In this document: positions 5,709-25,739 of the stretch, in pieces
Layout of the letters: each line of letters begins with the position of its first letter
Position numbering within the stretch: position 1 is the stretch's first letter
Assembly (NCBI RefSeq): GCF_000244895.1
Contig: NZ_CM001441.1
Span: 5,112,198-5,176,197 of the forward strand
Direction of reading: 5' to 3'
Length of the DNA stretch: 64,000 nt
Source: Desulfosporosinus youngiae DSM 17734
GTDB lineage: Bacteria; Bacillota; Desulfitobacteriia; Desulfitobacteriales; Desulfitobacteriaceae
Position numbers and translations under genes: made by a program
Notes under the pieces: model-generated
Database searches by the model: none
Told to the model about the DNA's origin: nothing
The model's input: only the letters and a program-made list of their open reading frames with translations

Positions 5709-5852
5709 TCCTATAATGTGAGTTATGATCACTCGAAAAATGAAAGGTTCCAGTACACTTTTCGTTGTTCGACAAATTCCGGGAAGTACCAGTCCCCTTC
5801 GGGAGGAAAAGTTGACCCTCGAAGACGATCTTCGAAGGCCTTTTCCGACCCG
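5709..5852 (+). repeat. Dispersed palindromic repeat, copy 3 (long form)
   Basis: Almost identical to copy 2 over its whole length, including the left extension from TCCTATAATG. The core is at 5768-5852. It has the same TCGAAGA/TCTTCGA hairpin and the same TTCGACAAATT left edge. It lies in the gene-free stretch between the nucleotidyltransferase unit and glf. Short ORFs across it are translations of the repeat. Confidence 0.85.
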
Positions 5853-5967
5853 AGCATTAGTTCCCATTGGCTATTGCTATGTGCAGACTTTTTGACAATT
5901 ACGAAAGAACCACTATGTTAGCAGTACAGGTCTCTATAACCATCATGATAATTACCTAAAAAATTCA

Positions 5968-6061
5968 TTCGACAAATTCTGAGAAGTACCAGTCCCCTTT
6001 GGGAGGAAAAGTTGACCCTCGAAGACGATCTTCGATGGCCTTTTCGGCCTTTTCCGACCCG
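5968..6061 (+). repeat. Dispersed palindromic repeat, copy 4
   Basis: Same core as copies 2 and 3, with a 10-base internal duplication (GGCCTTTTCG) near the right end and a mismatch in the hairpin stem. Its left flank differs from copies 2 and 3. Its right edge (TTTTCCGACCCG) is joined directly to the galE remnant, so it marks the break point of that gene. Confidence 0.85.
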
Positions 6062-6127
6062 AGCAAGCAATTCCATCGCTGTGTGGGAACCAATGTATCC
6101 GGCCCCACCAGTCAGTAAAACAACCCT
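6059..6127 (-). pseudogene. galE: galE remnant (UDP-glucose 4-epimerase N-terminus)
   Basis: The minus strand just after glf encodes VVLLTGGAGYIGSHTAMELL, the unmistakable nucleotide-binding start of UDP-glucose 4-epimerase. Only about 23 codons survive. There is no start codon in frame, and the frame runs straight into the palindromic repeat. GalE makes UDP-galactose, the substrate of the neighbouring UDP-galactopyranose mutase, so an intact galE once sat at the end of this operon. UDP-galactose must now come from another galE. Confidence 0.85.
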
Positions 6128-6129
6128 GT

Positions 6130-7236
6130 TTAAAATTCTCCTAATCGTAACACTTTTGAAGCCAGGGCTAAGGCTGATTTAATAGTAACATCCATATCAT
6201 AATACTTATACTCACCAAGACGTCCGCCGAAAAATACTTTTGACACTTGAGCCGCCAACTTGCGATACTCTTCATATAAAGCGTTATTCTTCTCATCATT
6301 TACCGGATAATAAGGTTCGTCACCGCACTTCCAAGAGGCACTGTATTCGCGGCTGATTACCGTCTTTGGCTGCGTGCCAAACTCAAAGTGCTTGTGTTCA
6401 ATAATCCTTGTAAAGGGTGTTTCCCTGTCCGTGTAATTGACCACAGCGTTGCCCTGGTAGTTATCCGTATCCAGCACTTCCGTTTCAAAGCGAACACTAC
6501 GGTATTCCAGCTCACCCAGTTTATATCCAAAATAGGCATCGATCTGTCCGGTGTAAACCACCTTTTCCGCTAACGCATCTATCTCAACTTTCTTCCCAAG
6601 ATAGTCGGTATTAAGCCTGATTTCCGCGCCTTTAAGCATTCTCTCAATGATTGCGGTATATCCTCCAAGGGGAATACCCTGATAACGATCATTAAAGTAA
6701 TTGTTATCGTAAGTGAACCGTACTGGCAAACGACGGATGATAAAGGCCGGGAGCTCTGTGCAGGAACGCCCCCATTGTTTTTCTGTATAGCCCTTAATCA
6801 GCTTCTCGTAGATGTCCCAACCAACAAGTGAAATAGCCTGCTCTTCGAGATTTTGCGGCTCACCGGTGATTTCCGCCCTTTGCTTTTCTATTATTGCTTT
6901 CGCTTCGTCCGGGGTCTTTATCCCCCACATTTTGCTGAAAGTATTCATGTTAAACGGCAGATTGTAAATCTCACCATGGTAATCGGCTATCGGGCTGTTT
7001 ACATAGTTGTTGAACTCGGCAAAGCTGTTTATGTAATCCCAGATGGATTTGTCCGAGGTGTGGAAAATATGTGCGCCATATTGGTGGACGTTGATGCCTT
7101 CAACAGCGTGGGTATAGATGTTTCCGCCGATATGGTCTCGCTTGTCTACGACAAGGACCGACTTACCGCGCTTTATTGCTTCATGCGCTATTACCGCGCC
7201 GTACAGACCAGCACCAATGATTAAGAAGTTATACAT
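6130..7236 (-). CDS. glf: UDP-galactopyranose mutase
   Basis: 368 residues, the normal length. It opens with an FAD-binding Rossmann motif (MYNFLIIGAGLYGAVIAHEA) and has the family blocks VDKRDHIGGNIYTH, YGAHIFHTSD, EKQWGRSCTELP and the C-terminal GRLGEYKYYDMD. The enzyme converts UDP-galactopyranose to UDP-galactofuranose in the cytoplasm. It is the last gene of the polysaccharide operon, behind the radical activase, which suggests the surface polymer contains galactofuranose. The start has an AAAGGG site upstream. Confidence 0.97.
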   Translation of the reverse strand: MYNFLIIGAGLYGAVIAHEAIKRGKSVLVVDKRDHIGGNIYTHAVEGINVHQYGAHIFHTSDKSIWDYINSFAEFNNYVNSPIADYHGEIYNLPFNMNTFSKMWGIKTPDEAKAIIEKQRAEITGEPQNLEEQAISLVGWDIYEKLIKGYTEKQWGRSCTELPAFIIRRLPVRFTYDNNYFNDRYQGIPLGGYTAIIERMLKGAEIRLNTDYLGKKVEIDALAEKVVYTGQIDAYFGYKLGELEYRSVRFETEVLDTDNYQGNAVVNYTDRETPFTRIIEHKHFEFGTQPKTVISREYSASWKCGDEPYYPVNDEKNNALYEEYRKLAAQVSKVFFGGRLGEYKYYDMDVTIKSALALASKVLRLGEF

Positions 7237-7265: not shown

Positions 7266-8045
7266 TTATATTTTGAGTACCTTTCCGTTCAGTCCATTCG
7301 TTTTTAAACTTCCAACAAATGCCTCCATAGTCTCCACCAAGGGCTTTTTGTATTCCGGAGGTTGTTGGCCCAATTTCTCGTACTTTGCTTTCCCTAGGTT
7401 ATGTGCTTCTAATATCTCTACTGTGCCTGGTTTGTATATAGCCATCAATGACGTAATTTCACCCAAATTGTCTTCGTCGTCTGTAAACCCAGGAATGAAC
7501 GGAATGCGTATTGTGACATGCGCTGGATCAATTTGTGTGAAAAGAGTTTTCAAGTTATCGAAATATCGTTGCAGATTTCCACCCAAAACCGCCTTGCATT
7601 TTTCGGCATCAGAAATAATTTTGCAATCTACCATCCACTCGTCGACATATCTCATGGCGATTTCCAACAATGCAGGGGGAACGAAAAGAGAAGTCTCCAC
7701 ACATTGATTAATACCTTTAACCTTCAAACTTGATAATAATGGCTCAATTTCTTTAGTGCGAAGAAGCGGCTCCCCGCCGGAATATGTTACGCCACCTCCG
7801 CATTCATAATATGGTGAATCTTTGAGGATTGTCTTCTCAATTTCACCAAGTCCCTTATATTCCCCAAAAGCCATGATATTACCATTGTCAACCGTGGCTT
7901 CCTGAATCGCGGACGAAATTGTCTCAGGATTCGCACACCAGGGGCAATGCAACGAACAACCTTTCAAAAATACGGTTGTGCGTATACCGGGGCCGTCATG
8001 AAGGCAGAACCTCTGAATATCTGTAACCAATACTCTATCACTCAC
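7266..8045 (-). CDS. Glycyl-radical enzyme activase (radical SAM, PFL-AE type)
   Basis: 259 residues. The N-terminal VTDIQRFCLHDGPGIRTTVF matches pyruvate formate-lyase activating enzymes, followed by the radical-SAM CxxxCxxC cysteines C30, C34 and C37 (GCSLHCPWC) and the SAM-binding SGGEP motif. There is no extra ferredoxin-like cysteine domain, so it is the short PFL-AE form. Such enzymes place a glycyl radical on a partner enzyme, here almost certainly the GRE at 9491-11452. The ATG overlaps the flippase stop by 4 bases (ATGA type), so it is translationally coupled into the polysaccharide operon. Confidence 0.93.
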   Translation of the reverse strand: MSDRVLVTDIQRFCLHDGPGIRTTVFLKGCSLHCPWCANPETISSAIQEATVDNGNIMAFGEYKGLGEIEKTILKDSPYYECGGGVTYSGGEPLLRTKEIEPLLSSLKVKGINQCVETSLFVPPALLEIAMRYVDEWMVDCKIISDAEKCKAVLGGNLQRYFDNLKTLFTQIDPAHVTIRIPFIPGFTDDEDNLGEITSLMAIYKPGTVEILEAHNLGKAKYEKLGQQPPEYKKPLVETMEAFVGSLKTNGLNGKVLKI

Positions 8046-9484
8046 GTGTGTCTCCTCGCTTTTCGCAGCATTTGCTTACAAATCTCTAAAAAGAATGAAT
8101 CCCGTAATATCAAAAGACTTACTGCGTATACTGCGCTTCCAGCGACAAAGAGAACACCCGTCGCCAATATTGTCGATGAGAAAAACCCCCTTGCCCACCA
8201 TAACAGCGCCGTCATCAAGACAGCACCAGCAAGGTACTTTGGCATAGGCGCAACAACATCCTTGACGGGGAATGTTTTTCTCACATAAATCAATTGTATA
8301 ACCGCAATCGCTATCTCAGCGACCACGGAGGCAAGTGCCGCGCCCAAAGCAGCCATATGCGGAATCAGCAATAGGTTCAAAACAACGTTGATTACGGCTC
8401 CCGCAATGACTGTGGCGGTAAAAACATTTTGCAAGCCCACAGGTATTAGATACTGGACGCCTGTAACATTGTTGATTCCGATGCCAATCAGCAAAAAGGA
8501 AAAGACGGATATCAAGACCGGGATCTCGTCCCACCCCGGGCCATAAAACCATCCGGAAAACTGGCTCGCCAGCGCAATTATCCCACCAATCAAAGGCAAC
8601 GCAAGCAGCCAAACAAAGCGGTAACTTCGAAATATGATTCTTTTAATAGTGTCAATATCTTTTGCCGCATGAGCGGCCGCAATACGTGGGATACAGACCA
8701 CTCCAAGGGATGTAACTAAGGTAAGCGCTGTTTTTACAATTTTTTCAGACTGCTCGTAATATCCATTTTGAACTGCTGATTCAGTAAAGACACCAATCAT
8801 TGTTTTGTCAAGAACGGTATAAATGCTGACGGCAATAGTTGGGAAAAACAAGGTGGCGATTGTCTTTGTGTCCCTAAAAGGGTTGATCTTTCCTATTCCT
8901 GAAAAGCTAATTAATCCGCGCAGATATGGAAACAAGGATATGTTGCCGACAAGCTGGGACCCCGCTAGTATTCCTGCGTATAAAGCCATATCTCTCGGAG
9001 ATTTTACAAGTATAAAAATGAGTACCATTCCCACCAGCTTTACGGCGACATTTCTTAAGACGGTTCTCTTGAACTGCTCCAATCCCATAAAGAACCACGA
9101 AATGTCAAACGCCACGGCAATCAGCAAAATACCTTGCATACAATATACCATCATATTTTGAGGGGTAAAAATAATGAGAAAACCAAAATAGACTATTGTA
9201 CAGACTGATGTAAAAATCACCCGGAATAACAGAACTTCAAAGAAAACCTGGCTTCGCTGTGTTTTATCTTCTCGCACGTATGCAATTTGACGCTGGCCAT
9301 ACAAGGCCGTGCCAAATGCAGCAAATAATGCGAAATAGGTGACAATGGAGTTGGTAAAGCTATAAACCCCAACACTTTCGGCTCCAAGGACGCGGGATAC
9401 GTATGGGGTCGTTACAAGCGGAACCAGTATTGCAACAACCTGATATGTCAGATTATAAAGATAATTTTTTTTTATGGAGGGCAA
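8042..9484 (-). CDS. wzx: Wzx-type polysaccharide flippase (MATE/MOP superfamily)
   Basis: 480 residues with about 12-14 hydrophobic segments across the whole length and the family opening KKNYLYNLTYQVVAILVPLV followed by TTPYVSRVLGAESVG. Proteins of this family flip undecaprenyl-linked oligosaccharides across the cytoplasmic membrane. The start is a TTG 6 bases after the stop of the glycyl-radical enzyme, and its own stop overlaps the activase start. The flippase is thus sandwiched between the two radical-chemistry genes. Confidence 0.93.
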   Translation of the reverse strand: MPSIKKNYLYNLTYQVVAILVPLVTTPYVSRVLGAESVGVYSFTNSIVTYFALFAAFGTALYGQRQIAYVREDKTQRSQVFFEVLLFRVIFTSVCTIVYFGFLIIFTPQNMMVYCMQGILLIAVAFDISWFFMGLEQFKRTVLRNVAVKLVGMVLIFILVKSPRDMALYAGILAGSQLVGNISLFPYLRGLISFSGIGKINPFRDTKTIATLFFPTIAVSIYTVLDKTMIGVFTESAVQNGYYEQSEKIVKTALTLVTSLGVVCIPRIAAAHAAKDIDTIKRIIFRSYRFVWLLALPLIGGIIALASQFSGWFYGPGWDEIPVLISVFSFLLIGIGINNVTGVQYLIPVGLQNVFTATVIAGAVINVVLNLLLIPHMAALGAALASVVAEIAIAVIQLIYVRKTFPVKDVVAPMPKYLAGAVLMTALLWWARGFFSSTILATGVLFVAGSAVYAVSLLILRDSFFLEICKQMLRKARRHT

Positions 9485-9490
9485 AATTCT

Positions 9491-11452
9491 TTACCTGCTT
9501 TCCGCTGCAAGAGCACGTTCTATCAAGACATCTTTATAGCTATCCGGCAAATCCTTGAAATATGCGGAAAAGCCCCATACACGGACAACCAAATCCGGGA
9601 AAGCTTTTGGATTCTTCCTGGCTTCAGTAAGTGTCTTTGCTGATACGACATTCATTTGCATTTGGAAATAACCTCGCTTTTGACTGAGCATTAGAAAATC
9701 CACAAATTTATCGTAGTTATTTTTTATGAAATCCGGAGAAACAAAGAAGTCTACCACATTGCCGTTAAATTTATTACCGCTGTAATCCAGCCCGGAGGCG
9801 AAAGAAACAAGTTCAGTAGGCGCCAACCCCGATGCGCCGGAAATATGGACAGCCAGCGGCTCTCCAACATCTCGCCCGTCGAAGGATGCGCCCGTTGTTT
9901 TTCCTGAATCAATATAAGAAGGCGAAGAAAGACCAAATTTTACTTTACCACCCAAGTTCGTGTGAAAATCAGTGATTTCAGTACTTACAACCGCTTTGAT
10001 TTTTTCCGTAAGTTCAGTTGCCCTTTCTAGATCATGTCCGAAAATAGCATTTTCTTTTAACCCCTTAGCCCATTCAGCAGAAAAGCCTTCTACCCTTTTT
10101 GAATTTAATTCAGACAAGCTTAATTCTTTACTGTCAAACACAAGATTTTTGATGTTTTGCAATGAATTAACCGCATTCGCCATACCAACAGTCGTAATAC
10201 CCATCCCGTTGTACTTACATCCCCCTTCAGAGATGTCTTTGGACGGATCGTCTAAATCCATGAACAATGACAACAGCGGTGCTTCCACAAAGGGTTTGGC
10301 CTGAGAAAGCGCAAATACATTCTGAACTTCGTTGCTTAAGCTTTTAGCATAGGCGGAAAACAAATCATTAAACGATGTCATATCGCTCAGTTTTTCCTTA
10401 TCGAAAACAACAAGTAGTGGCTTAAGCAAATTCAGTGAGGCCGCGTTGTTCGCATCAGAACTTTTACCAACTATCAGCGGCTCCCAACAAGCGCTTGTCC
10501 CATATTTATAGGCGTCTTCTTTGTCGTATCCAAACGCAATAAGCTGGGGAATAACCACATCGTCATTGGTAAAAAGTGGCGCGCCGCAACCGGTAGCTAT
10601 GCTATCCAGCGAAAGTTCATATAATCGCCGCGGCGTATTTTTGTTCACCCGCAGTAGAATTTTGGGGTCAGGCAACACAAGTTCTTTGGAAAGTTCTAAG
10701 AAAAGCTCTGTTAGATCATTATGGACATAGCCGCCCTTACCATCATCTCCTCCGAGAATGATAATCTGCCCTGTATCCCCCATTAACACCTGGCTTTTGT
10801 ACAAATAATATTCATGCAACGCTTTAAGGAAATCCCGCAGCAAATCCTTTGCTGCCGCTCGAGTCAGTGTCCCATCTGAAACGCCCTCCGTGTAATACGG
10901 TTCAAGTATACTATCCAGATGACCAAGTCCGTTAAGCCGGTGTCCAGCTTGCCAAATAAGGCTATTGGCAAAAAGAATCCGTTGCAGAGCCTCACGGAAA
11001 TCCGAAGCCGGCTTTGTTTGCATATTGGCCAATTGCGCAGCAATAATTTCTTTGTCCGAGTGGTTACTATGCTCAACAGCTTTTTGCAGTTTCGTTGCGT
11101 AAGCTATCACCCCATCGAGTACCCGGCGGCGTTTTTCTACTGATGAGTTGATATCGCTTGGACGCAGTTCTTCCAGCCCATATTTCAGAATTCTCTCATA
11201 GGCCGGTGTATTGTTGCTTACTGTCTTTTTCCCTCGCGCCCATACAATTTTCCATGGATCAATAGAGTAAACAAACCTACTATCTTGATTAATATAAATT
11301 CGGGAGGCACGGAGAATTTTGCATATGTTCCCCGTTATATCGGAGCTAGTATAAATCCGTATGCCGATTAACGCACGGAGATACTCGGAAGCAGGAATGC
11401 GCCTTGACATTCTTAACAATTTGCTTAACTTGCTTAAGTATTTATTTAACAT
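9491..11452 (-). CDS. Glycyl-radical enzyme (PFL-like) inside a polysaccharide operon
   Basis: 653 residues. The C-terminus holds the glycyl-radical motif RVWGFSAYF with G627 as the likely radical site, and the active-site loop is YGTSACWEPL with C322 and E324. The C-x-E pattern is shared by dehydratases and lyases of the family (glycerol/diol dehydratase, choline lyase) rather than pyruvate formate-lyase, which has two adjacent cysteines. Other family blocks are GGCKYNGMGITTVG near 410 and DGRDVGEPLAVHISGASG near 525. It is shorter than well-known members (about 750-850). The activase is encoded two genes later. The substrate is unknown; the context suggests a sugar, sugar nucleotide or amino-sugar substituent. 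Confidence 0.9.
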   Translation of the reverse strand: MLNKYLSKLSKLLRMSRRIPASEYLRALIGIRIYTSSDITGNICKILRASRIYINQDSRFVYSIDPWKIVWARGKKTVSNNTPAYERILKYGLEELRPSDINSSVEKRRRVLDGVIAYATKLQKAVEHSNHSDKEIIAAQLANMQTKPASDFREALQRILFANSLIWQAGHRLNGLGHLDSILEPYYTEGVSDGTLTRAAAKDLLRDFLKALHEYYLYKSQVLMGDTGQIIILGGDDGKGGYVHNDLTELFLELSKELVLPDPKILLRVNKNTPRRLYELSLDSIATGCGAPLFTNDDVVIPQLIAFGYDKEDAYKYGTSACWEPLIVGKSSDANNAASLNLLKPLLVVFDKEKLSDMTSFNDLFSAYAKSLSNEVQNVFALSQAKPFVEAPLLSLFMDLDDPSKDISEGGCKYNGMGITTVGMANAVNSLQNIKNLVFDSKELSLSELNSKRVEGFSAEWAKGLKENAIFGHDLERATELTEKIKAVVSTEITDFHTNLGGKVKFGLSSPSYIDSGKTTGASFDGRDVGEPLAVHISGASGLAPTELVSFASGLDYSGNKFNGNVVDFFVSPDFIKNNYDKFVDFLMLSQKRGYFQMQMNVVSAKTLTEARKNPKAFPDLVVRVWGFSAYFKDLPDSYKDVLIERALAAESR

Positions 11453-11480: not shown

Positions 11481-12728
11481 CTAATTTTTAAAAGACGAAC
11501 GATAATTCCGGATATCATCAAGTCTAAATCCAAGGATAAAAATAATATTAGTAGATAATACAACCGTAAAAGGTGGCTCAGTTATGCTTGCCACAGCTAG
11601 TGCAATAAATATGGCAATCAAACAGGCAGAATAAGAATCTTTGACAGCGTCAACTCGAATCGCGAAAATAATCATTAATATTGAAAATAGTAGTAGCAAA
11701 ACCATTCCACCAGTAAACAAGTACACTAACATCTGATTATGTGCGTGAATTGCTTCCTTGATGCCAATTAAGTCCGAAAACCCCTCGGAATTCCACATGC
11801 CATAACCCATAATCGGTTTTTTCTCGACGTATTCGAAAACAATCGACCATATTAATGTGCGATTTGACAACGTAACATCGCGATTTAAAATGTCAGAAAT
11901 TAGCCACTTCAACCTTTCACTTAATTCCCAGAAAACAAATGAAAATGAGAGTAAGAAAAATAATATGACTCCCGTTTTTGCACAAACAATTTTGTATAAC
12001 CAATTATGTTGGATGTAAGGATAAATTAGAATAACTGTCAGTGCAAATACACTTACAATCAAACCAGTGGCAGACCATAAATAAAAAGTTTGAAATATGC
12101 TGATGAAACAATACAACAACAACTTTACTTTGTTAACAAGTCTTTTTGAAAGCTGATAACGAATATAAACAAAAGGTAACCCTGAAAGAAAATAATATAC
12201 AATAGAATTTTGGTGCCCCAATAGAAAATTTTTTCTTACACCGTCAACCATAGCAACAGCAGTATCATACATACCAGATGGAAACAAAAATATACTAACA
12301 AGGTTTGCAATCAACAGTATTTCAAATGTTTTTGCTAACACATTAATCCCGGTATCCGGATTCTTTGCTAGTAAAAAATCCACCAATAATAACATGCAAA
12401 AGAGCGAAGCCATACTGATTACTGGAGCTTTGATATCAATTCCATTCAATAAAGTTGAAAAAATCATTATAGTAAAGCTTAGACCCAAAACAACTAAAGG
12501 AAACTTTGGTTTTGAACCGTGCCCTATATACAAAAATAAGATTACTAATCCAGATATGATTCTGGCGACGTTGAAAATCGTATCTAAAGTTTCCACCTGA
12601 TTAAAAAAAGCCGGCTTGAGCTGCACTATAAGCAAAAGTACATAGAACAACTCCTTAAGTGAGGATTTCCTTATTTTGAATAATCCTTTGGGATTACCAA
12701 ACTTTATTTTTTCTTTGCTTCTATTCAT
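11481..12728 (-). CDS. wzy: Wzy-type O-antigen polymerase/ligase membrane protein
   Basis: About 415 residues from the ATG at 12728. It has some ten to twelve hydrophobic segments and a large extracytoplasmic loop in the C-terminal half with SNRTLIWSIVFEYVEKKPIM and GYGMWNS, the pattern of the O-antigen ligase/polymerase family (PF04932). Such proteins polymerise lipid-linked repeat units outside the membrane. An upstream in-frame start at 12782 would overlap the preceding glycosyltransferase. The gene is AT-rich, as wzy genes usually are. Confidence 0.88.
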   Translation of the reverse strand: MNRSKEKIKFGNPKGLFKIRKSSLKELFYVLLLIVQLKPAFFNQVETLDTIFNVARIISGLVILFLYIGHGSKPKFPLVVLGLSFTIMIFSTLLNGIDIKAPVISMASLFCMLLLVDFLLAKNPDTGINVLAKTFEILLIANLVSIFLFPSGMYDTAVAMVDGVRKNFLLGHQNSIVYYFLSGLPFVYIRYQLSKRLVNKVKLLLYCFISIFQTFYLWSATGLIVSVFALTVILIYPYIQHNWLYKIVCAKTGVILFFLLSFSFVFWELSERLKWLISDILNRDVTLSNRTLIWSIVFEYVEKKPIMGYGMWNSEGFSDLIGIKEAIHAHNQMLVYLFTGGMVLLLLFSILMIIFAIRVDAVKDSYSACLIAIFIALAVASITEPPFTVVLSTNIIFILGFRLDDIRNYRSSFKN

Positions 12729-12747
12729 AGCTCCAACCACTTCCAGA

Positions 12748-13518
12748 TTACTCAAAATATTGTGTTCGTCTTTTCTTCGCACGAATCGCTTTGACTGCCG
12801 CTATCGTTTCAAATACCACCCACACCACAAAAGCGGACTGCGTTTTACCGGCATAATAAATCGCCTGATGGTAAGGTGTTAACATACGACTATCGACATC
12901 TCGTACACCCTTTACCCTGGATTCAAAACAAATGGCGCGGTTAACCAACAGCTCCCTGCCCACTAATTTCTGCCACGGCGCACCAAGCCCTATTAGGGTA
13001 CTATTATCAGGTTTAGCGGGGTTATATGTACGGTACATTATCATTCTCACAATATCGTCGATGAAGCGGCGCTCTTCCGTTACAAATGGCGATTTGAAAG
13101 TTCTATGCCTATGTTCCGTACCTGCAAACATATACGTGCAATCCCCCAATACCACATCTGCGGATGTTTGTATAGCTTCCTTATATAAAGCTTCGCACGC
13201 TTCCTTCGGCACAATATCGTCAGAATCAAAGAAGATTACATAGTCTCCCCTCGCTTTCACAAGTCCTTTGTTCCTGGCGGCAGACACCCCGCTGTTCGGC
13301 TGATGTATAACAATAATCCGGCTGTCTCTTTCAGCATATTCATCGCAGATTATTCCGCACTTGTCAGGAGTTCCATCATCTACAAGTATAATCTCCATGT
13401 TTTTCAATGTCTGGTTGACAATGCTATCCAGACATTCCGGCAGATACTTTTCAACATTGTAAATAGGCACAATTACGCTAACCCAAGGAAATCCGGATAC
13501 TTCAAAAACCCTTTGCAT
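12748..13518 (-). CDS. Family 2 glycosyltransferase, internally shortened
   Basis: About 256 residues from the ATG at 13518, which has GGAGG upstream. The GT-A domain is complete: VSVIVPIYNVEKYLPECLDS, IILVDDGTPDKCG, NSGVSAARNKGL and the DSDD metal-binding motif. After VKGVRDVDSRML the sequence jumps to AFVVWVVFETIAAVKAIRAK, a tail like the end of the 354-residue paralogue at 14346-15410. About 90 residues of the acceptor region are missing relative to that paralogue, so it may be a deletion derivative with reduced or no function. The ATG overlaps the stop of the degraded neuB-like gene. Confidence 0.8.
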   Translation of the reverse strand: MQRVFEVSGFPWVSVIVPIYNVEKYLPECLDSIVNQTLKNMEIILVDDGTPDKCGIICDEYAERDSRIIVIHQPNSGVSAARNKGLVKARGDYVIFFDSDDIVPKEACEALYKEAIQTSADVVLGDCTYMFAGTEHRHRTFKSPFVTEERRFIDDIVRMIMYRTYNPAKPDNSTLIGLGAPWQKLVGRELLVNRAICFESRVKGVRDVDSRMLTPYHQAIYYAGKTQSAFVVWVVFETIAAVKAIRAKKRRTQYFE

Positions 13519-14092
13519 TACCAATCCTCCATCAAGGTTTTTCTCTCAATCAGATCTAATGCTGCAATTCTTTCGTCCTCGTAGTAGGAATCGTTCTTGA
13601 CATGTGTCGTAGAGATTTCTTCGAAAATGCAGCCGTCATCCGCTCTGAATGAATGTGCGGTTCCACGCTCTACCGTGAATATCTCACCGGCTTTTAGCTG
13701 GATTTCCTTTCTGTCCGCTATGAGAGAAAGGTTTCCGTAAACACTTGGAAGGTTTCCTCCTTGACCTTATGGAAGTGCATAGGGTGCACCTGTCCGGGCA
13801 ATATCACAATTATCTTCTTGCATATTCTCTGTTGGCTATATTAATGATGGTCGCACCGTAATGGCGAAAATGCTGCAATCCATAATGATGGGAAAGCTCC
13901 AACTCAAATTGGTTCCCAATCACAATTTTAGCTTCATACAGCAAGCCCTTCACATCATGAAGAATGGTTCTTGTATCCATCACGGTGGATATTGTAGGTT
14001 GCTCTTATAGCGCTTCCTTAGCCGCATAATCCTTTGATGCCGTCATACCAGCGCGGAACTCCCCGCTTGTGGTTTGCCCTTTGGCTGCCGGC
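13518..14092 (-). pseudogene. Degraded neuB-like gene (sialic-acid-synthase family C-terminal cupin part)
   Basis: Three minus-strand frames together encode a recognisable C-terminal part of a sialic-acid-synthase-family protein: FELELSHHYGLQHFRHYGAT, then KKIIVILPGQVHPMHFHKVK, then AGEIFTVERGTAHSFRADDG and FEEISTTHVKNDSYYEDE. The frames are joined by two apparent single-base deletions, near 13821 (a lost T before GC) and near 13740 (a lost T in a TTTAC run), and an in-frame stop interrupts further upstream. The N-terminal catalytic barrel is absent. The stop codon TAATG overlaps the next glycosyltransferase start. Upstream of about 14000 the match is weaker. Confidence 0.75.
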
Positions 14093-14345: not shown

Positions 14346-15410
14346 TTAACGTTTTAATAAACTCTTGACCATTCTTCTCACCCTGAATGTCAGCCATATT
14401 CCAAGCGGCCAGTTAAGCCTTGCCGGCCAGTATGTAAGCAAATGAGGCGCCATTAGCTTGCTACTTTCGACATTTTTGATTGCAGACCAGTACGGATCTG
14501 TGTGAATCATCTTTTTCAATTCTTTTAGACTTTCCCTAAATGATTTATCACTATTCTTTGAGAAGTAATAAGCACTTAACTCCGCACTCAATCTACGAAT
14601 AACATACAAATAAAAAGGCTTCTCAAACTTCTTTTTGTCGTCCTGCTGAGCAATAAAACCACTAATGCGTTCAAAAATCCTCCTGCTGATATCCAACGTG
14701 TTAGACTTATATGACTGAGTAAGTGATTGCTCCAATATCCGGTAATTATAAACTGGCTTGGCAATATAACTGATTTTCTTTACTTTATCAAGATAGTATA
14801 ATGTGAAAAGATTATCATCATAGATTCCCTTCACATATGAATCGTACCGCAAGTTATTCTCTACGATAATCTTTCTGCTATAGAGCTTATTCCACGGGCT
14901 GCCCAATCCTGACACATTTGATCTTACGGCTGGTGCCGGATTGTAGCCGTAGCCGATACACGCTGCCTGATATTGCTGGATAAAATTCCTTTCCTCAGTA
15001 ACAAAATCCTCTTTGAAGATTCGATTTGTTCTCTTATTTCCGTTTGTAATTGAGTAGGCATCAGCCACGATCATATCAGCGCCGCTTCTCAGATATTCAT
15101 TGTATAATATCTCACAACCATTCAGCTCCATCCAATCATCCGAATCAACAAACATGAGGAAGTCGCCGATGGCATTATCGATTCCAGTATTTCGTGCTTC
15201 GGAAACACCAGCATTTTTCTTCTCGATTACTTTGACGCGGCTATCGAGGGCAGCATACTCTTTATAAATTTTGGCACTGTTATCAGGAGAGCCATCATCA
15301 ACGATGATAATCTCAATGTCCTTGAAAGTCTGGTTCACCAGACTTTCCAAGCATTCAGCGATATATTTCTCAACATTATATACAGGTACAACAACGCTAA
15401 TCTTTGGCAT
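14346..15410 (-). CDS. Family 2 glycosyltransferase
   Basis: 354 residues. The N-terminal GT-A domain shows ISVVVPVYNVEKYIAECLES, IIIVDDGSPDNSA, NAGVSEARNTGI and DSDDWME, the nucleotide-sugar and metal-binding motifs of GT2 enzymes. No membrane segment is obvious, so it is probably a cytoplasmic or membrane-associated transferase adding one sugar to the lipid-linked repeat unit. It lies between the epimerase and the neuB-like pseudogene. Sugar specificity cannot be read from the sequence. Confidence 0.93.
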   Translation of the reverse strand: MPKISVVVPVYNVEKYIAECLESLVNQTFKDIEIIIVDDGSPDNSAKIYKEYAALDSRVKVIEKKNAGVSEARNTGIDNAIGDFLMFVDSDDWMELNGCEILYNEYLRSGADMIVADAYSITNGNKRTNRIFKEDFVTEERNFIQQYQAACIGYGYNPAPAVRSNVSGLGSPWNKLYSRKIIVENNLRYDSYVKGIYDDNLFTLYYLDKVKKISYIAKPVYNYRILEQSLTQSYKSNTLDISRRIFERISGFIAQQDDKKKFEKPFYLYVIRRLSAELSAYYFSKNSDKSFRESLKELKKMIHTDPYWSAIKNVESSKLMAPHLLTYWPARLNWPLGIWLTFRVRRMVKSLLKR

Positions 15411-15477: not shown

Positions 15478-16416
15478 TTATTTTACACTACTTATTTCAT
15501 ACTTAATGCAATCTTCTATAGTATTCCGGAATGAGTGTCCGGGCTTCCAGTTTAAATCTTGATAAATCATCGCACAGTTCATCCCAGCATTGAGTTGAAT
15601 GTCGGAAGGTTCTATTATGATGTCGACTTCTGGCTTGTTCATTGCAGCCATACAGCTATTAATTTCCCTTGCCATATCTACAATGTTCATCTGATAATTG
15701 TTGCCAAGATTATATTCTTTCTTCCAACTAAAAACATCCACATCAATCAGGCGACATATTGCAGAAGCAGCATCTCTCACATCTAAGAAGGAAAACTTTT
15801 GCTCACCACCCACTATCCGGATACTCTTACCCTCTAGTGCATTGTCAACGAATTTCTTCAATACATTATCCGGTATAGTATTACTAGGTCCTATGAGAGA
15901 AGCCAACCGGATATTAGTGCAACGACACATCATACTGGGACTGTCTTCTTCAGATTCCATAATCGTCTCTAACAGAATTTCGGACGCGGATTTTGCCAAG
16001 GCATATAAATACCCCGGGTTCATCGAAATTGTTTCATCAGGCAGTACACCTTCATCCTGCCCATAAACAGCTTGTGTTGAAATATTAATGATACCTTTTA
16101 CACCAAGCTTTCGAGCTAATACAAATATTTCTTTTGAGAAGTACAAACTTTCCACTAAGTGGTTTCCTCTTGATTTTCTGCAGAAAGCTGCATGTACTAT
16201 GATATCAGTTGCTTCTAAGTATTCCGTCTTATTGAATACATCATCATTCGAAACACAAGTAACATCCAAGTCAGCATAATTCTCTTTTGCTTTTGCCGAA
16301 TCAGAAGTCATAGCAATAATGTTGTACTCTCCGCACTTACAAAGCTGGTGCAGTAATTCCCATGCCAAAAAACCATTGGCACCGGTAACTAGAATCGTTT
16401 TCTTTCCTTCCATCAT
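15478..16416 (-). CDS. NAD-dependent epimerase/dehydratase (extended SDR)
   Basis: 312 residues of the extended short-chain dehydrogenase type. It has a nucleotide-binding motif TGANGFLAWELLHQL at the start and the YxxxK pair in YLYALAKSASE near residue 150; the serine region reads INISTQAVYG. It would modify a nucleotide sugar in the cytoplasm by epimerisation, dehydration or reduction. It could supply the missing RmlD step or make an unrelated sugar; the sequence does not decide. The ATG pair at 16416/16413 gives two equal starts. Confidence 0.88.
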   Translation of the reverse strand: MMEGKKTILVTGANGFLAWELLHQLCKCGEYNIIAMTSDSAKAKENYADLDVTCVSNDDVFNKTEYLEATDIIVHAAFCRKSRGNHLVESLYFSKEIFVLARKLGVKGIINISTQAVYGQDEGVLPDETISMNPGYLYALAKSASEILLETIMESEEDSPSMMCRCTNIRLASLIGPSNTIPDNVLKKFVDNALEGKSIRIVGGEQKFSFLDVRDAASAICRLIDVDVFSWKKEYNLGNNYQMNIVDMAREINSCMAAMNKPEVDIIIEPSDIQLNAGMNCAMIYQDLNWKPGHSFRNTIEDCIKYEISSVK

Positions 16417-16564: not shown

Positions 16565-17419
16565 TTATCCTGACAACCTCATACTTCCAACCGATTCAAC
16601 TGTCACAGCTGCAATTGCTTCAAGCGCATAAGCTCTATTTGTAATTTTTTCATAATTGATGCCTTCTTTAGTCAACTCAACAAGATTTATGGCTCTTCCG
16701 TCCCATGAGTACCCCATGAAAGTGCCCCTTCCAATTGAACGCACCTTTGCATTTTTTCTGTTGAATACATACTTTACCAGTTGAATCATCATATAAATAT
16801 CTGTCTTTGCTCCTACATTCTCCACATACCATACATCATTCTCAAACTGCTCCTGCCAGGTCACCGGATGATCCGAAACTTTTCTCGGAGGACATTCTAA
16901 CCCCGGTCTAACAGCCAGGCGCATTTTATGCCTTTTGTTATACCTGTGTGTATATTCAGGAACTAGCGGTCTTGGGCCTAATAGGCTCATATCACCTTTA
17001 AAAATGCTCCAAAAGTTCAACAACTCATCTAGTGATGTTTTTCTGACGAACTTACCAAATTCCGTAACTCTTTGATCTGGTGGCAATAACTCTCCACGCT
17101 CATCGACTGTGTTTCGCATATTCCGAAATTTTATGAGCACAAATATCTTTCCTTCTTTTCCAACTCGCTCTTGTTTAAAAAAGATGGGCCGCCCCACATC
17201 AAAATATGTAACAATCCCTATTACAAGGTTAATAGGTAACGTCACAATCAGCGCTAACCCGGAAACAATAATATCTATAATTCGCTTCACATATTTTGAA
17301 TATATGTTTTCATGGGGTATTACTTCCTCGCAAAGCATATTCACAGCCTCTAGACGTTCTTCCGCCAACTGATCTGCGAGTTTCCACCGCATTTCTTTTG
17401 TTAATTCCTCCGCAATCAT
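16565..17419 (-). CDS. Initiating bacterial sugar transferase (undecaprenyl-phosphate sugar phosphotransferase)
   Basis: 284 residues. After an unusual N-terminal cytoplasmic stretch of about 45 residues comes the hydrophobic hairpin VKRIIDIIVSGLALIVTLPI, then the catalytic core with FKQERVGKEGKIFVLIKFRN, RKTSLDELLNFWSIFKGDMS and LLGPRPLVPEY. These are the hallmarks of the WcaJ/PglC family, which transfers a sugar phosphate to undecaprenyl phosphate and starts the repeat unit. It lacks the large multi-span N-terminal domain of WbaP/WcaJ, so it is the short form. Confidence 0.94.
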   Translation of the reverse strand: MIAEELTKEMRWKLADQLAEERLEAVNMLCEEVIPHENIYSKYVKRIIDIIVSGLALIVTLPINLVIGIVTYFDVGRPIFFKQERVGKEGKIFVLIKFRNMRNTVDERGELLPPDQRVTEFGKFVRKTSLDELLNFWSIFKGDMSLLGPRPLVPEYTHRYNKRHKMRLAVRPGLECPPRKVSDHPVTWQEQFENDVWYVENVGAKTDIYMMIQLVKYVFNRKNAKVRSIGRGTFMGYSWDGRAINLVELTKEGINYEKITNRAYALEAIAAVTVESVGSMRLSG

Positions 17420-17470: not shown

Positions 17471-18766
17471 CTACAATACTTCAAATAGTCTATTCGGCTC
17501 AAACCGCAGGCACATATTTTCACCCTTATCATTTAATACCGTAATTGTTTCATTGAGATATTGCACATCCTTCGCCATCTGTTCTCGGCTTTCGCAAATC
17601 ATAACGAAGCGAATATGTAGTTGTCTAAGAGTATTGCCATAAGGGGTGTCTGCGCCCTCTGGATAACGACACTCATATTCAATAACACTAGGCGTGCTCA
17701 CCACGGCTTCTTTTAGTCCACGAATTGCGCCAACCTTGCCACCTTTCGTAGCAAAAGATACTATACCACAGCACTTTCCTTTAAGTAAGGGATCTTCTTT
17801 CGCAGAGTCATAGGATTCCACTTTCCCCAACAACGCTTGATCAACTAGTATATCCATAAAATTAATACCATTTAATTTCTCTATAAAACGATAGGGGGCC
17901 TCTCCCGCGCAACGCAAACCTGCCTCAAAAATCGAGAATCCATCATTACCGTGCAACCCCTGAATGAACAACACTCCATTCTGGATACCAATCTCTCTGC
18001 ATAGGTTAAGCATGGACTCATTAACCTGTATCATATATTTTTCAAGAAAAAGTGATGGATAAATTCTCGCAATAGGAATCGTTGTTACCAAACCTTTATT
18101 TATAGCTACTGGATATCTATTGTCGATACACGCCAAATATGGTATGCCATTGCAAATAGTATAATGAGCTGTAAACTCATGCCCTTTTATATACTCCTCT
18201 AAAATCAATTTCCCAGCAATAGAGTTCTTTATGGCTACTGGCTCTGCATCGCGAAGTTCTTTCTCGGTCTGGCAAATAGAAACACCTGCCGATGTACTAC
18301 CATCTACCGGCTTTATCACCACCGGATAATGTAGCCTGGCCCAAATATCATCTGGTATCCTCTCTCCAGTATAATAGGTGCGTGGACTTGGAACCCCACA
18401 TCTATCGCATAAAGCACGAAATTGATCTTTGCTCTCGACCATATCCCATTGTTCTTTTGTGCAGTAAAAAGAAAGTCCGAATTTATCGCTAAGTGTCATA
18501 GCGTTGAGAAGATTAAATTCACTGATACCTGCAAGAACTCCATCCACTTTACGTTCTTGAATCAGCGTGCTCAGTGCCCCCAAATCTCCGGTGCTGATTA
18601 AAATATGCTCGTCCGCCACCCGCTTTGCGGCAGAATTCTCTGGTGAATAATAATCCGCTACGATAGTGTAGGCTCCATTCGCACGGGCATATGTTACTAT
18701 GTCTGTAGCACCTACGTTAGAACCTAAAATCAACAACTTCTTACCAGAAAATCTATTACTTTTCAT
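17471..18766 (-). CDS. ATP-grasp ligase (carboxylate-amine ligase type), first
   Basis: 431 residues. It opens with a Rossmann-like pre-ATP-grasp domain (KKLLILGSNVGATDIVTYAR) and follows with the ATP-grasp fold: VVIKPVDGSTSAGVSICQTE, the adenine-binding ILEEYIKGHEF and the metal-binding end GFSIFEAGLRCAGEAPYRFI. The family joins a carboxylate to an amine or thiol through an acyl phosphate. With a second such ligase next to it and an aminotransferase upstream, a likely job is to attach an amino acid or other acid to an amino sugar of the polymer. Substrates are unknown. Confidence 0.88.
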   Translation of the reverse strand: MKSNRFSGKKLLILGSNVGATDIVTYARANGAYTIVADYYSPENSAAKRVADEHILISTGDLGALSTLIQERKVDGVLAGISEFNLLNAMTLSDKFGLSFYCTKEQWDMVESKDQFRALCDRCGVPSPRTYYTGERIPDDIWARLHYPVVIKPVDGSTSAGVSICQTEKELRDAEPVAIKNSIAGKLILEEYIKGHEFTAHYTICNGIPYLACIDNRYPVAINKGLVTTIPIARIYPSLFLEKYMIQVNESMLNLCREIGIQNGVLFIQGLHGNDGFSIFEAGLRCAGEAPYRFIEKLNGINFMDILVDQALLGKVESYDSAKEDPLLKGKCCGIVSFATKGGKVGAIRGLKEAVVSTPSVIEYECRYPEGADTPYGNTLRQLHIRFVMICESREQMAKDVQYLNETITVLNDKGENMCLRFEPNRLFEVL

Positions 18767-20594: not shown

Positions 20595-21692
20595 TCACCG
20601 TAAAATAATATCGCAGATTCTATCCACGTCTTCCACAGCCAAATCCGCATACATCGGAAGTGTCAGTACACATTCCGCCGCATGTGATGCTACAAGTACA
20701 TTAGCATCACCATATGTATCTGCATAGCAGGCGGCTTTATTAACAATGGGGTAAAAGTATTTTCTCGCAAAAATATTGTCCGCTTCCAATTTCGCTTTGA
20801 TTTCATCTCTTGTCTCTTTATAGCCATCGAAGACGACGGGAAAATATGCATAATTCCACTTGAGATTTGCATCAGGCTTAATCAATTTAATGCCCTTAAC
20901 CCCATCCAGTCGTTCCATATACCTATCACCAGCGGCTTTGCGTTTTGCAGTTTCCTCATCGAAGTGTCGCAAGTTGCAAATGCCCATCACTGCCTCAAAT
21001 TCGTTCATCCTGGCATTCGTGCCGATGTAATCAATATCCTCATGACTAGTAAATCCAAAGTTGACCAAGTAGCTCATTGCCTTAAATAAAACTGAATCTT
21101 TGTAAGCAACAATTCCACCCTCAATTGTGTGGAATGCCTTTGTTGCATGTGTACTGAACATTGCTGCATCGCCAAAGTTAGCAATCCCAACACCTTTATA
21201 AGTAACACCAAAGGCATGTGCAGCATCATAGATAACCTTAATATTATGTTTTCTTGCAATTCTTTCAATTTTCTCTACATCGCATACGAATCCATAAACA
21301 TGAGTTGCCACGATGGCAACCGTCTTTTCAGTGATAGCCTGCTCAATCAGTTCTGGATTAATTGTGTAGGTATACTCTTCCACATCCACGAAAACTGGTG
21401 TCAATCCGTTACGAACAATAGCGTGAGTAGTAGAACAATGTGTATACGGAGTCGTAATGACTTCGCCCTCGAGATATAGTGCATTAAGTGCAACTTCAAG
21501 TGCAACATGACCATTTGCAAACAGATAAAGATGCTCCGTCCCTAAATATTCCTTAAGTTTATTTTCAAGCTCAACTGATGCAGCCCCGCGGTTAGACAAC
21601 CATCTGCTATCCCAAACAGGCTTCAACGCCTGAATGTACTCCTCAAACTCGGGCATGGATGATTTTGTAACATTAATTCTATGTGCATTCAT
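20595..21692 (-). CDS. DegT/DnrJ/EryC1/StrS family sugar aminotransferase
   Basis: 365 residues. The PLP-lysine is K185 in STHATKAFHTIEGG, preceded by the DAAHAFG motif (D156) that binds the cofactor ring; NRGAASVELENKLKEYLG and TPYTHCSTTHAI are also typical. The enzyme would transaminate a keto sugar nucleotide. Since rmlA, rmlB and rmlC are just upstream and no rmlD is present, dTDP-4-keto-6-deoxy sugars are the obvious substrate pool, giving a dTDP-amino sugar such as Fuc3N, Qui4N or a relative. The exact position of amination is not deducible. Confidence 0.92.
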   Translation of the reverse strand: MNAHRINVTKSSMPEFEEYIQALKPVWDSRWLSNRGAASVELENKLKEYLGTEHLYLFANGHVALEVALNALYLEGEVITTPYTHCSTTHAIVRNGLTPVFVDVEEYTYTINPELIEQAITEKTVAIVATHVYGFVCDVEKIERIARKHNIKVIYDAAHAFGVTYKGVGIANFGDAAMFSTHATKAFHTIEGGIVAYKDSVLFKAMSYLVNFGFTSHEDIDYIGTNARMNEFEAVMGICNLRHFDEETAKRKAAGDRYMERLDGVKGIKLIKPDANLKWNYAYFPVVFDGYKETRDEIKAKLEADNIFARKYFYPIVNKAACYADTYGDANVLVASHAAECVLTLPMYADLAVEDVDRICDIILR

Positions 21693-21712: not shown

Positions 21713-22261
21713 TTAAAAATTACAGTCGCTTTCCTTATATAAAGGTGCGCTCTGATCTTTAGCGGACAATATAGGCGTTTCAATGTCCCACTTGACACCT
21801 ATCAACGGGTCATCAAACCTAACCGTCCGATCAGCTCTCGGGCAATATGTCTCATCAACGTAATACTGTATTTCACTGTATGGCTCACGTGAAATTACAC
21901 CATGCGCAAATCCCTTGGGTATATATAGTTGCTTTCGGTTTCGTGCGGAAAGCTCCACCATAACCCATTTAAGGTATGTAGGGGAATCTTTCCGAAGATC
22001 CACAGCTACATCAGCCACGTGACCTTTCGTACAGCGAACAATTTTAGCCTGTGCATATGGCGCATTTTGAAAATGTAGACCGCGGATCACCCCTACATAC
22101 TCATTCCTGATGTGGTTTTCCTGTTTTGCTATGAATTCTATCCCTACTTCATGTAAAGCCTTCTCACTGTAGGCTTCATAAAAAAAACCTCGCTGATCTT
22201 CAAAGACCTTTGGCGCTAAAATCAAAACCCCAGGTATTTCTGTTTTCTCAACTTCATACAT
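21713..22261 (-). CDS. rmlC: dTDP-4-dehydrorhamnose 3,5-epimerase
   Basis: 182 residues, the standard length. It has GVLILAPKVFEDQRGFFYEA, GVIRGLHFQNAPYAQAKIVR with the catalytic His, and YIPKGFAHGVISREPYSEIQ. It epimerises C3 and C5 of dTDP-4-keto-6-deoxyglucose in the cytoplasm. It lies between the truncated kinase ORF and the aminotransferase. Confidence 0.95.
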   Translation of the reverse strand: MYEVEKTEIPGVLILAPKVFEDQRGFFYEAYSEKALHEVGIEFIAKQENHIRNEYVGVIRGLHFQNAPYAQAKIVRCTKGHVADVAVDLRKDSPTYLKWVMVELSARNRKQLYIPKGFAHGVISREPYSEIQYYVDETYCPRADRTVRFDDPLIGVKWDIETPILSAKDQSAPLYKESDCNF

Positions 22262-22263
22262 TT

Positions 22264-22389
22264 CTATTTCTCCTTTAGTGGATTGTCAACAACAAACTGG
22301 ACAATTATTTTTAGAAACTGCGCCAGTAATTTGCTCTGTGTCCCTTTCCCGCTTCCGTCCAATCCCTCCATCACGATCAGTTTTCCCAT
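22264..22389 (-). pseudogene. Truncated thymidylate-kinase-like ORF
   Basis: A 41-codon ORF begins GKLIVMEGLDGSGKGTQSKL, which is the P-loop start of dTMP kinase (about 200 residues when complete), then runs LAQFLKIIVQFVVDNPLKEK to a clean stop. It starts 14 bases after the rmlB stop and ends 2 bases before rmlC. The join looks like an in-frame internal deletion keeping the first 25 codons and a short tail. Full-length tmk-like genes beside rml genes could feed dTTP to dTDP-sugar synthesis; this one cannot be an active kinase. Confidence 0.75.
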
Positions 22390-22403
22390 AATTTCTGCCT
22401 CAC

Positions 22404-23453: not shown

Positions 23454-24334
23454 TATGCTCTCTCTCCCATTGCTATAGAGCTCAGATACTGGCCGTAAGA
23501 AGATTTTCCAAAACGTGCAGCCAATTGGAGTAATTGCTTTCTATCAATCCAGCCCATCCGGTATGCTATCTCCTCAGGTGCCGAAATCTCCACATTCTGT
23601 CGTTTCTGCATCATATGCACAAAAGACGATGCTTCTATAAGACTGTCCATCGTTCCCATATCAATCCATGAAAACCCTCTGCCCAGTAGGTGAACATTCA
23701 AAGCATTCGCTTTCAGATAGAGATTGTTCAAATCAGTGATTTCAACCTCCCCTCTTTCTGAAGGTTTTACCTGTTTGGCAAACTCCACTACCTGGTTATC
23801 ATAAAAATATAATCCCGTAACGCAGTAATTGCTTTTCGGTTTCTTTGGCTTTTCCTCAATAGAAATCACTTTATGATTCTCGTCAAATTCCACAACACCA
23901 AATCTTTCCGGATCATTTACATAATATCCGAAAATTGAGGCGACTCCATTTTCCGCATCCCTGACGGCTTTCCCCAAAAGGTCGCTGAACCGGGTACCAT
24001 AAAAAATGTTATCGCCTAGAATAAGAGAGCAGCAGTCACCCTCTAGAAAGTCCTCCCCCAATATAAATGCTTGGGTAATCCCGTCCGGAGAGGGTTGCTC
24101 TTTGTACGATATATGTATTCCATACTGATGACCATCGCTCAGCAATTTCTTGAAATTGGGTATATCTTCCTTTGTTGAAATCAGAAGAATATCTTTAATT
24201 CCTGCAAGCATCAGCGTTGACAGTGGGTAAAAGATCATCGGTTTGTCATAGATTGGCAATAGCTGTTTGCTTATAACTGTTGTCAACGGATATAATCTTG
24301 TTCCTGAACCCCCAGCTAGAATAATTCCTTTCAT
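23453..24334 (-). CDS. rmlA: Glucose-1-phosphate thymidylyltransferase
   Basis: 293 residues from the ATG at 24334 ([18 protein letters not shown]), which has AGGAG 9 bases upstream; a TTG at 24343 sits directly against that site and is unlikely. Other family blocks are [28 protein letters not shown] and [20 protein letters not shown]. It makes dTDP-glucose from dTTP and glucose-1-phosphate and is the entry step of the sugar pathway here. Confidence 0.97.
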
Positions 24335-25436: not shown

Positions 25437-25492
25437 TTAAACGCTCCTACAACTCAAATATTATGAATTATATGATACATTCGTCAATTATC

Positions 25493-25509
25493 TTCATATT
25501 TCCTTCATA
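25493..25509 (-). promoter_or_regulatory. Shared 17-bp upstream motif, cpsB copy
   Basis: The minus strand reads TATGAAGGAAATATGAA, identical over all 17 bases to a motif upstream of yveK at 27242-27258. It contains ATGAA twice at an 11-base interval, a spacing typical of tandem response-regulator half-sites. A TATAAT-like box lies about 20 bases downstream of it towards cpsB. Confidence 0.5.
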
Positions 25510-25735: not shown

Positions 25736-25739
25736 ACTT

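Follow-up and report, generated by a model that had tools for sequence, protein, structure and literature searches.

A glycyl-radical enzyme family tied to surface-polysaccharide assembly, with a galactofuranose-type sugar as its probable target

We analysed a stretch of 64,000 nucleotides of the Desulfosporosinus youngiae DSM 17734 genome (assembly GCF_000244895.1, contig NZ_CM001441.1, positions 5,112,198 to 5,176,197 of the forward strand), hereafter called the window and numbered from its first letter, focusing on a gene for a glycyl-radical enzyme (GRE) that lies there among polysaccharide genes. The GRE (653 aa, 9491-11452) is encoded on the minus strand, as are all the genes of the locus described here. 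It carries the Pfam domains PF02901 (PFL-like, 218 bits) and PF01228 (Gly_radical, 43.2 bits), both above cut-off. Because the PFL-like match starts only at position 158 of the 647-position profile, this protein has a shortened N-terminal part compared with a usual GRE. As read from the sequence, the catalytic residues C322/W323/E324 occupy 10489-10481 (C322 = TGT, 10489-10487; E324 = GAG, 10483-10481), and the radical site G627 is the codon GGC at 9574-9572. After a gap of 6 bases (9485-9490) follows a Wzx-type flippase (480 aa, TTG start, 8042-9484; PF01943 Polysacc_synt, 84.6 bits, above cut-off), which overlaps by 4 bases (8042-8045) with a radical-SAM GRE activase (259 aa, GTG start, 7266-8045). 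The activase matches PF04055 (Radical_SAM, 49.6 bits), passes the GRE-activase family TIGR02494 of NCBIfam with 210.2 bits against a cut-off of 174.35, and has the radical-SAM motif CxxxCxxC. Next comes glf (6130-7236; TIGR00031, 429.6 bits against a cut-off of 303.75), the gene for UDP-galactopyranose mutase, which makes UDP-galactofuranose. The places, the gap and the overlap that the initial annotation had given for these open reading frames (ORFs) are exact to the base, the residues it had named as C322-x-E324 and G627 fall on the expected codons and in conserved columns of the family alignment, and its view of GRE, flippase and activase as made together in a polysaccharide operon holds; this operon lies beside glf in a Wzx/Wzy polysaccharide locus.

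The whole region from 6130 to about 27178 reads as such a locus. Just upstream of the GRE lies a Wzy-type polymerase with an O-antigen-ligase-like domain (11481-12782; PF04932, 44.3 bits), and beyond it two family-2 glycosyltransferases (GT2; PF00535), the first of which (12748-13524) looks shortened, while the second spans 14346-15410. They are followed by an NAD-dependent sugar epimerase/dehydratase-like protein of the short-chain dehydrogenase/reductase type (15478-16416; PF01370), an initiating undecaprenyl-phosphate sugar-1-phosphate transferase (16565-17419; PF02397), two ATP-grasp proteins (17471-18766, PF13535; 18980-20179, NCBIfam matches below cut-off) and a DegT-type sugar aminotransferase (20595-21692; TIGR04427, 273.5 bits, below the cut-off of 650). 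Some names come from sequence reading only: those of three ORFs read as the dTDP-sugar genes rmlC, rmlB and rmlA (21713-24343), and those of a CpsB-like phosphatase and a Wzz-like chain-length protein that share 24639-27178 with a tyrosine-kinase-like ATPase (AAA_31/ParA for 25740-26450).

Bacterial and archaeal genomes were scanned with three seed sequences, which yielded 590 candidate stretches, 566 of them relatives; the best 80 were kept as loci (labelled L; genomes are labelled G), so that more copies exist than are counted here. All counts over 80 loci refer to these, and their best-segment identity to the window GRE was 37-54%. Neighbours were labelled from blastp searches with the genes of the window (E <= 1e-5), and gap lengths depend on taking the longest ORF in each case. 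The activase lay at most three genes away from the GRE in 72/80 loci, Wzx in 47/80 and glf in 21/80; Wzx immediately adjoined the GRE in 39/80, and glf occurred anywhere in the locus DNA in 33/80. Adjacent genes lay on the same strand in 49/49 GRE-activase, 18/18 GRE-Wzx and 19/21 Wzx-GRE pairs, and 43 of the 49 adjacent GRE-activase pairs overlapped or were at most 5 bases apart (longest-ORF starts). Since the same genes neighbour each other in dozens of other loci, their adjacency in the window is more than chance. Furthermore, Pfam found both parts of a fused GT2 and GRE in single ORFs of L066 and L068, and of a fused Wzx and GRE in L091. The pairwise distances of the GRE correlated with those of the activase (r 0.67, 71 rows) and of Wzx (r 0.66, 44 rows including the window), and less with those of glf (r 0.42, 21 rows), host kinship not being removed in any of the three.

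The gene is accessory: in the family to which the window's genome belongs, only that genome, of 45, had a match at E <= 1e-60. This would suit an ordinary catabolic GRE that landed in a polysaccharide cluster and plays no part there, an explanation made highly improbable by the recurrent operon, the three fusion genes, the Wzx-correlated distances and a type of Wzx that is itself tied to the GRE (see below). We consider the tie of the GRE to glycan assembly strong. The claim of the initial annotation that this enzyme is wired into surface-polysaccharide assembly is borne out well beyond the window, and the link recurs across loci, contrary to the possibility it had raised that homologues elsewhere might never be linked to polysaccharide genes.

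A quick tree of 87 rows placed the window GRE and its 77 relatives of at least 600 aa in one clade with full support (100) in the Shimodaira-Hasegawa-like approximate likelihood ratio test (SH-aLRT). Seven full-length GREs fell outside this clade, as did two sister genes, in L006 and L010, which paired with support 100. The tree used 77 of 82 GRE ORFs, leaving out five short ones (L061, L072, L076, L090 and a fragment in L046). Among the NCBIfam equivalogs, the best match of the window GRE was NF007437 (formate C-acetyltransferase, which we take to be PflD), with 188.9 bits against a cut-off of 1109, followed by sulfopropanediol dehydratase (170.5/1000), CutC (148.8/1050), HypD (147.8/1100) and HPAD (93.6/1150); the broader subfamily TIGR01774 reached 231.6 against 678.2. 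The protein thus stayed far below the cut-off of every family matched, namely formate C-acetyltransferases, CutC, HypD, sulfopropanediol dehydratases, and indoleacetate and hydroxyphenylacetate decarboxylases, and it falls inside none of these isofunctional GRE groups.

The hosts, judged by record title, were mostly Bacillota, many of them from gut or rumen, together with Methanobrevibacter, a Thermoplasmata bin, Synergistaceae, an Eggerthellaceae bin, a Saccharibacteria bin and the spirochaete Breznakiella. Bin contamination was considered as the source of the archaeal copies and rejected, because the six Methanobrevibacter rows form one clade and records not labelled as metagenome-assembled genomes carry the gene (the complete genome of Breznakiella homolactica, L057, and L071, L078 and L085); the single Saccharibacteria (L056) and Thermoplasmata (L066) copies could be contamination. 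Searches for close relatives by family, phylum and class gave, beyond the window's own genome, only matches of 30-33% (in the phylum search the best 3 candidates were scored per genome). Plasmid and phage records contained no match reaching 60% identity; of the 24 hits listed, the three examined were two full-length GREs of about 800 aa (H1 and H2) and the sister gene of L010 (H16). In two scans of viral contigs (4 and 76 pattern stretches), none encoded a relative. In some cases two GRE copies per genome were seen (L046, L060 and G500, locus L057; genomes G468, G490, G491 and G500), and in G500 each copy adjoins its own Wzx of the GRE-linked type.

The flippase was compared within 39 carrier genomes, taken by rank from 40 of the 80 loci (L023, L026, L032, L041 and all from L060 on being left out), with two pieces of one G494 Wzx joined. 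Of 27 matches to the window Wzx with at least 39% identity, 25 lay within 10 kb of a GRE, against 0/25 of the weaker matches (E <= 1e-20). Of the two exceptions, that in G470 could be due to a contig break, since the GRE of that genome starts a contig. In 397 other genomes of the phylum, the best match to the window Wzx was 37%, and only the window's genome exceeded that value (E <= 1e-60, 4 best candidates scored per genome). A precedent for a selective flippase is TacF, of the multidrug/oligosaccharidyl-lipid/polysaccharide (MOP) superfamily to which Wzx also belongs, which, according to PMC13385700, holds back unmodified repeats. By analogy, the GRE-linked Wzx clade may pass modified repeats only, just as TacF passes teichoic acid that bears phosphocholine; in TacF, differently, the modification is phosphocholine and no radical enzyme is involved.

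To which sugar the GRE is tied is suggested by glf. This gene was present in 38/39 carrier genomes against 44/398 in a sample of the window's phylum, which was unmatched for habitat and clade, so the comparison within the carriers is the better control. For that count we dropped Wzx rows that were below cut-off or passed only with neighbours in frame, a glf row of very low score (G492) and the second of two pieces of a G485 gene, and counted the two pieces of the G464 glf, and of the G491 glf, as one each. In the same 39 genomes, glf lay within 10 kb of 20 of the 30 Wzx genes that were near a GRE (at most 10 kb) and of 9 of the 153 others (Fisher p 7e-13 over 183 Wzx genes, taken as independent). 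Considering the GREs themselves, 24/43 had glf within 10 kb.

The transferases point in the same direction. The GT2 type akin to the fused domains occurs in 22 loci, and its alignment (hereafter GlfT-like) comprised the two fused domains and 14 of 26 cluster members. The best NCBIfam match of the fused GT2 of L068 was GlfT1 (NF050113, 82.4 bits, under the cut-off of 330), and 16/16 of the aligned members matched GlfT1 with E <= 1e-10, though without reaching the curated cut-off. A profile search of the PDB with this alignment returned GlfT2 first (E 2e-13). The L068 GT2 domain was modelled with a predicted local distance difference test (pLDDT) score of 91.6, and its closest fold was one GlfT2 entry (Z 25.0 over 281 residues), followed by a GalNAc transferase (Z 22.6 over 249). 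GlfT1 and GlfT2 are thus, narrowly, the nearest named relatives of the GT2 that adjoins the GRE or is fused to it, for which galactofuranosyltransferase is the likeliest name, by a narrow lead. We know of no case of either enzyme fused to a GRE. Another transferase type, present in 6 loci, best matched through its representative L019 the beta-1,6-galactofuranosyltransferase family (E 2.4e-93, 313 bits, cut-off 420). Overall, a galactofuranose marker, meaning glf or one of these transferases, was present in 55/80 loci.

Several observations weigh against these ties. Regarding glf, 19/43 GREs lack it within 10 kb, 25/80 loci show no galactofuranose marker at all, some of their contigs being very short, and the Fisher tests assume independent genes although several bins share a sampling project. 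Regarding the transferases, the GlfT1 and beta-1,6-galactofuranosyltransferase matches stay under the curated cut-offs; for the GT2 of L030, a rhamnosyltransferase family scores slightly above GlfT1; other GT2 chains come close behind GlfT2 in the PDB profile search (E 4.8e-13); the other GlfT2 entries (Z 21.2-22.0) are tied with GalNAc transferases, yet cover 279-281 residues; and Foldseek separates GlfT2 (7.8e-15) from GalNAc-T2 (1.1e-14) by a narrow lead. In the tree, the fused GRE of L066 is sister to that of L068 (support 96), so the GT2-GRE fusion may have arisen once. In the window locus itself no galactofuranosyltransferase was recognised, its two GT2 proteins matching general GT2 families only (Pfam). 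Regarding the flippase, a Lachnospiraceae clade (L017, L024, L025, L031, L032, L036-L038) shows no Wzx, and the Wzx of Methanobrevibacter is only 23-25% like that of the window and lies on the other strand in L028 and L033, so the bond between GRE and Wzx is not universal. In the Lachnospiraceae clade without Wzx we also observed most of nine cases of an ORF of about 144 aa, Rossmann/PglD_N-like, directly upstream of the GRE (L024 9435-9869 and similar).

These gaps leave room for a substrate elsewhere in the repeat, for instance a polyol phosphate, a choline-type substituent or another sugar, with glf as a mere frequent companion. LicD-like genes in 10/80 loci and IspD/TarI-like genes in 7/80, each named from one representative, would fit such a substrate, as would the loci without a marker, the window without a recognised galactofuranose transferase and the narrowness of the GlfT match. 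On the other hand, within the same genomes glf tracks the GRE and not Wzx generally, in two loci, which may go back to a single event, the GRE is joined to a GlfT-like transferase, and the LicD and TarI types are a small minority; we regard this explanation as unlikely. The tie of the GRE to galactofuranose is good but not universal, and the glf genes, the GlfT-like and galactofuranosyltransferase-like neighbours and the fusions indicate that the target sugar is probably of the galactofuranose type.

Turning to the chemistry, the model of the window GRE (pLDDT 92.5, predicted template modelling score 0.92) was closest in fold to PflD (Z 38.6, 2.1 A, 622 residues), glycerol dehydratase (37.6), propanediol dehydratase (37.5) and YbiW (36.8), with class III ribonucleotide reductases lower (Z about 23). 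PflD, glycerol dehydratase and propanediol dehydratase count as tied, their Z values lying within about 1; PflD was also the best PDB match of the family profile. Fold, the two Pfam domains, the catalytic cysteine and the radical glycine place the protein in the GRE superfamily. In the alignment of 78 rows, C322, W323, E324, K219, D226, Q229, K264, N336, D568 and G627 were invariant, H171 was kept in 76 rows and H536 in 77, and all 77 long relatives carry the motifs C-W-E, R-V-W-G and GDxGQ. Thus, the C-x-E motif of the GRE eliminases is present throughout as C-W-E (78/78). According to PMC7077986, this motif is common to GRE eliminases, its glutamate is proposed to help form the ketyl in most of them, and nothing is strictly conserved among them outside the Cys and Gly loops.

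One feature of the active site speaks against a standard eliminase. The column of the usual GRE histidine, present as H in 5/7 full-length GREs compared, is Asn80 in 75/78 rows; this column presumably corresponds to H160 of HypD, the histidine partner of the C-x-E glutamate. The catalytic network therefore differs from that of known eliminases. Since only the Cys and Gly loops are strictly conserved among eliminases (PMC7077986), the missing histidine bears on mechanism more than on eliminase membership, and the C-x-E motif makes eliminase chemistry likely.

The known enzymes nearest in fold offer two partial models. E. coli PflD and YbiW turn 1,5-anhydrohexitol 6-phosphates into 1-deoxyfructose 6-phosphate (PMC12441222; PDB titles for the cleavage), which brings sugar rings within the reach of GREs. 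They share with the window GRE the fold, the C-x-E loop and, if its target is as proposed, a sugar-derived cyclic substrate. They differ in that their chains are about 125-155 residues longer, with some 25% identity over the structural alignment, and their pathway, as described in PMC12441222, is catabolic and begun by the phosphotransferase system, whereas the neighbours of the window GRE are polysaccharide genes. GREs acting on sugar rings were thus already known from PflD and YbiW (PMC12441222), which corrects the initial annotation, where characterised GREs were confined to fermentation, choline and aromatic metabolism. The B12-independent glycerol and 1,2-propanediol dehydratases likewise share fold and C-x-E loop, and their vicinal diol chemistry would also be allowed by C5-C6 of galactofuranose, but they use small free diols and have chains of 787 and 843 residues. 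The activases of these dehydratases carry ferredoxin domains. In 71 of 73 activase ORFs of the family (200-340 aa) that were checked, CxxxCxxC was present in all and the ferredoxin-type motif C2xC2xC3xC in none, and the nearest solved relative of the window activase is the activase of pyruvate formate-lyase.

If the chemistry resembled that of PflD, the enzyme would cleave a C-O bond so as to open the sugar ring or cut a glycosidic bond instead of eliminating water, trimming or editing the lipid-linked glycan. The place of PflD among the closest folds and as best profile match, and its conversion of anhydrohexitol phosphates to 1-deoxyfructose 6-phosphate (PMC12441222), agree with this; the dehydratases are tied with it in Z, however, and it is hard to see what an assembly operon would gain from cutting the chain, which makes the proposal very unlikely. 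A radical epimerase deserves slightly different consideration: here the thiyl radical would remove a hydrogen that is returned on the other face of the furanose, so that the residue is turned directly into its epimer and no further enzyme is needed. Indeed, in a Pfam tally of 140 of 298 neighbours (a random draw, none over 560 aa), no enzyme recurred beyond the activase, Wzx, glf and transferases, and the nearly invariant polar residues H171, K219, H536 and D568 are specific to the family. An epimerase would, conversely, require a second hydrogen donor, and we know of no GRE epimerase. The C-x-E glutamate, in 78/78 rows, marks eliminases (PMC7077986), and we hold epimerisation to be quite unlikely.

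The best explanation, although a tentative one as a whole, is that the window GRE is a member of a separate family dedicated to assembling glycans, in which an anaerobic eliminase acts on a galactofuranose-type residue around its transfer and flipping, with the matching Wzx perhaps checking the result. The short activase would put the radical on G627, from which it would move to C322; residues and activase are observed. The C322 thiyl radical would take a hydrogen off a carbinol carbon of the galactofuranose-type residue, E324 would accept the hydroxyl proton, and a neighbouring C-O bond would break, with water as the likeliest leaving group; the product would be a keto- or aldehydo-deoxy furanose, formed with no redox cofactor. 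The favoured site would be the exocyclic C5-C6 diol, which resembles glycerol and propanediol. The modification would take place close to galactofuranosyl transfer and before export, either on the lipid-linked repeat or on a nucleotide sugar that feeds it, and the modified residue would form only without oxygen. In short, the GRE probably remodels a galactofuranose-type sugar ahead of export. A keto sugar often needs a reductase, and the lack of a recurring one among the 140 sampled neighbours (25 of 83 families listed) counts against this scheme; the product may be final, since no further enzyme recurs in that sample.

A more elaborate version of this eliminase scheme, a "sugar passport", is rather doubtful. 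In it, the GlfT-like transferase would add galactofuranose, a GRE anchored to the membrane, either through fusion or through its basic N-terminal segment, would turn it into a deoxy residue that can form only without oxygen, and the dedicated Wzx would let the marked repeats alone through. The segment before D65 is basic, with a median of 16.5 Lys+Arg against 7 acidic residues (over 80 rows, counting fusions and both sister genes), and some members lack the excess (L017, 7 vs 6; L024, 6 vs 7); its composition suggests that it may sit on the membrane.

GREs are known from small-molecule catabolism, fermentation and nucleotide reduction. Among the open-access papers listed, judged by title and the start of the abstract, we found none placing a GRE in glycan assembly, and the two papers combining glycyl radicals with galactofuranose were, by title, on other subjects. 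A whole family serving polysaccharide assembly, joined in some members to a galactofuranosyltransferase-like protein or to a flippase, would extend the superfamily to surface glycans and hint at an uncharted sugar residue on gut bacteria and methanogens. If the passport version holds, anaerobic bacteria and archaea, many of them from animal guts, would wear an oxygen-gated surface sugar, by a cassette that has spread between phyla.

The two sister genes, those of L006 and L010, encode GREs of 689 aa that, like the window GRE, have A-C-W-E, GDxGQ and R-V-W-G, Asn at position 80, K264 and N336; they differ by an identity of 27-30%, catabolic-looking operons and other residues at H171, K219, H536 and D568. 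In L010 (MT836376.1, 1220-10650) the sister GRE is part of an arabinofuranoside operon that also encodes two arabinofuranosidases, an aldose epimerase and a sugar transporter, and no sugar isomerase was noticed in the 10.7 kb of this record; arabinose-type sugars may therefore be used there by a radical route. The other sister (L006; L096 11485-18412) adjoins a sugar ATP-binding cassette transporter and a DUF4380 protein. L-arabinofuranose and D-galactofuranose have the same ring stereochemistry, which would explain a pocket common to the family and the sister genes. The L010 record is labelled phage and looks bacterial rather than viral. A further candidate sister, L098, found by a match at E <= 1e-100 among 26 genomes of the class of G382, was rejected because its 761 aa and its G-C-V-E loop read as those of a full-length GRE.

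Some minor observations concern the surroundings of the GRE. An unrecognised protein of about 324 aa recurs in ten loci, never more than three genes away from the GRE (L016 8895-9881, L018 8941-9909, L088 12618-13592), and neither Pfam on the L088 copy nor NCBIfam on the L018 copy gave a match over cut-off. Elsewhere in the window's genome there are three further GREs, of 785, 822 and 846 aa as counted from the first Met of the open frame. In the window, right after glf, the start of a galE-like (UDP-glucose 4-epimerase) gene is read on the minus strand at about 6125-6060 and soon breaks off, and between glf and the next genes (about 5790-6070) a stretch of about 75 bases can be read in two copies (gctcgggtcggaaaaggcc...). 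Apparent remains of a cupin-like gene lie between the two glycosyltransferase genes (minus strand, about 13560-13940); together with the shortened-looking transferase at 12748-13524, they make the polysaccharide locus seem recombined. Just past the locus, the minus strand at 28245-33376 encodes two large proteins with apparent signal peptides and cell-wall-binding repeats.

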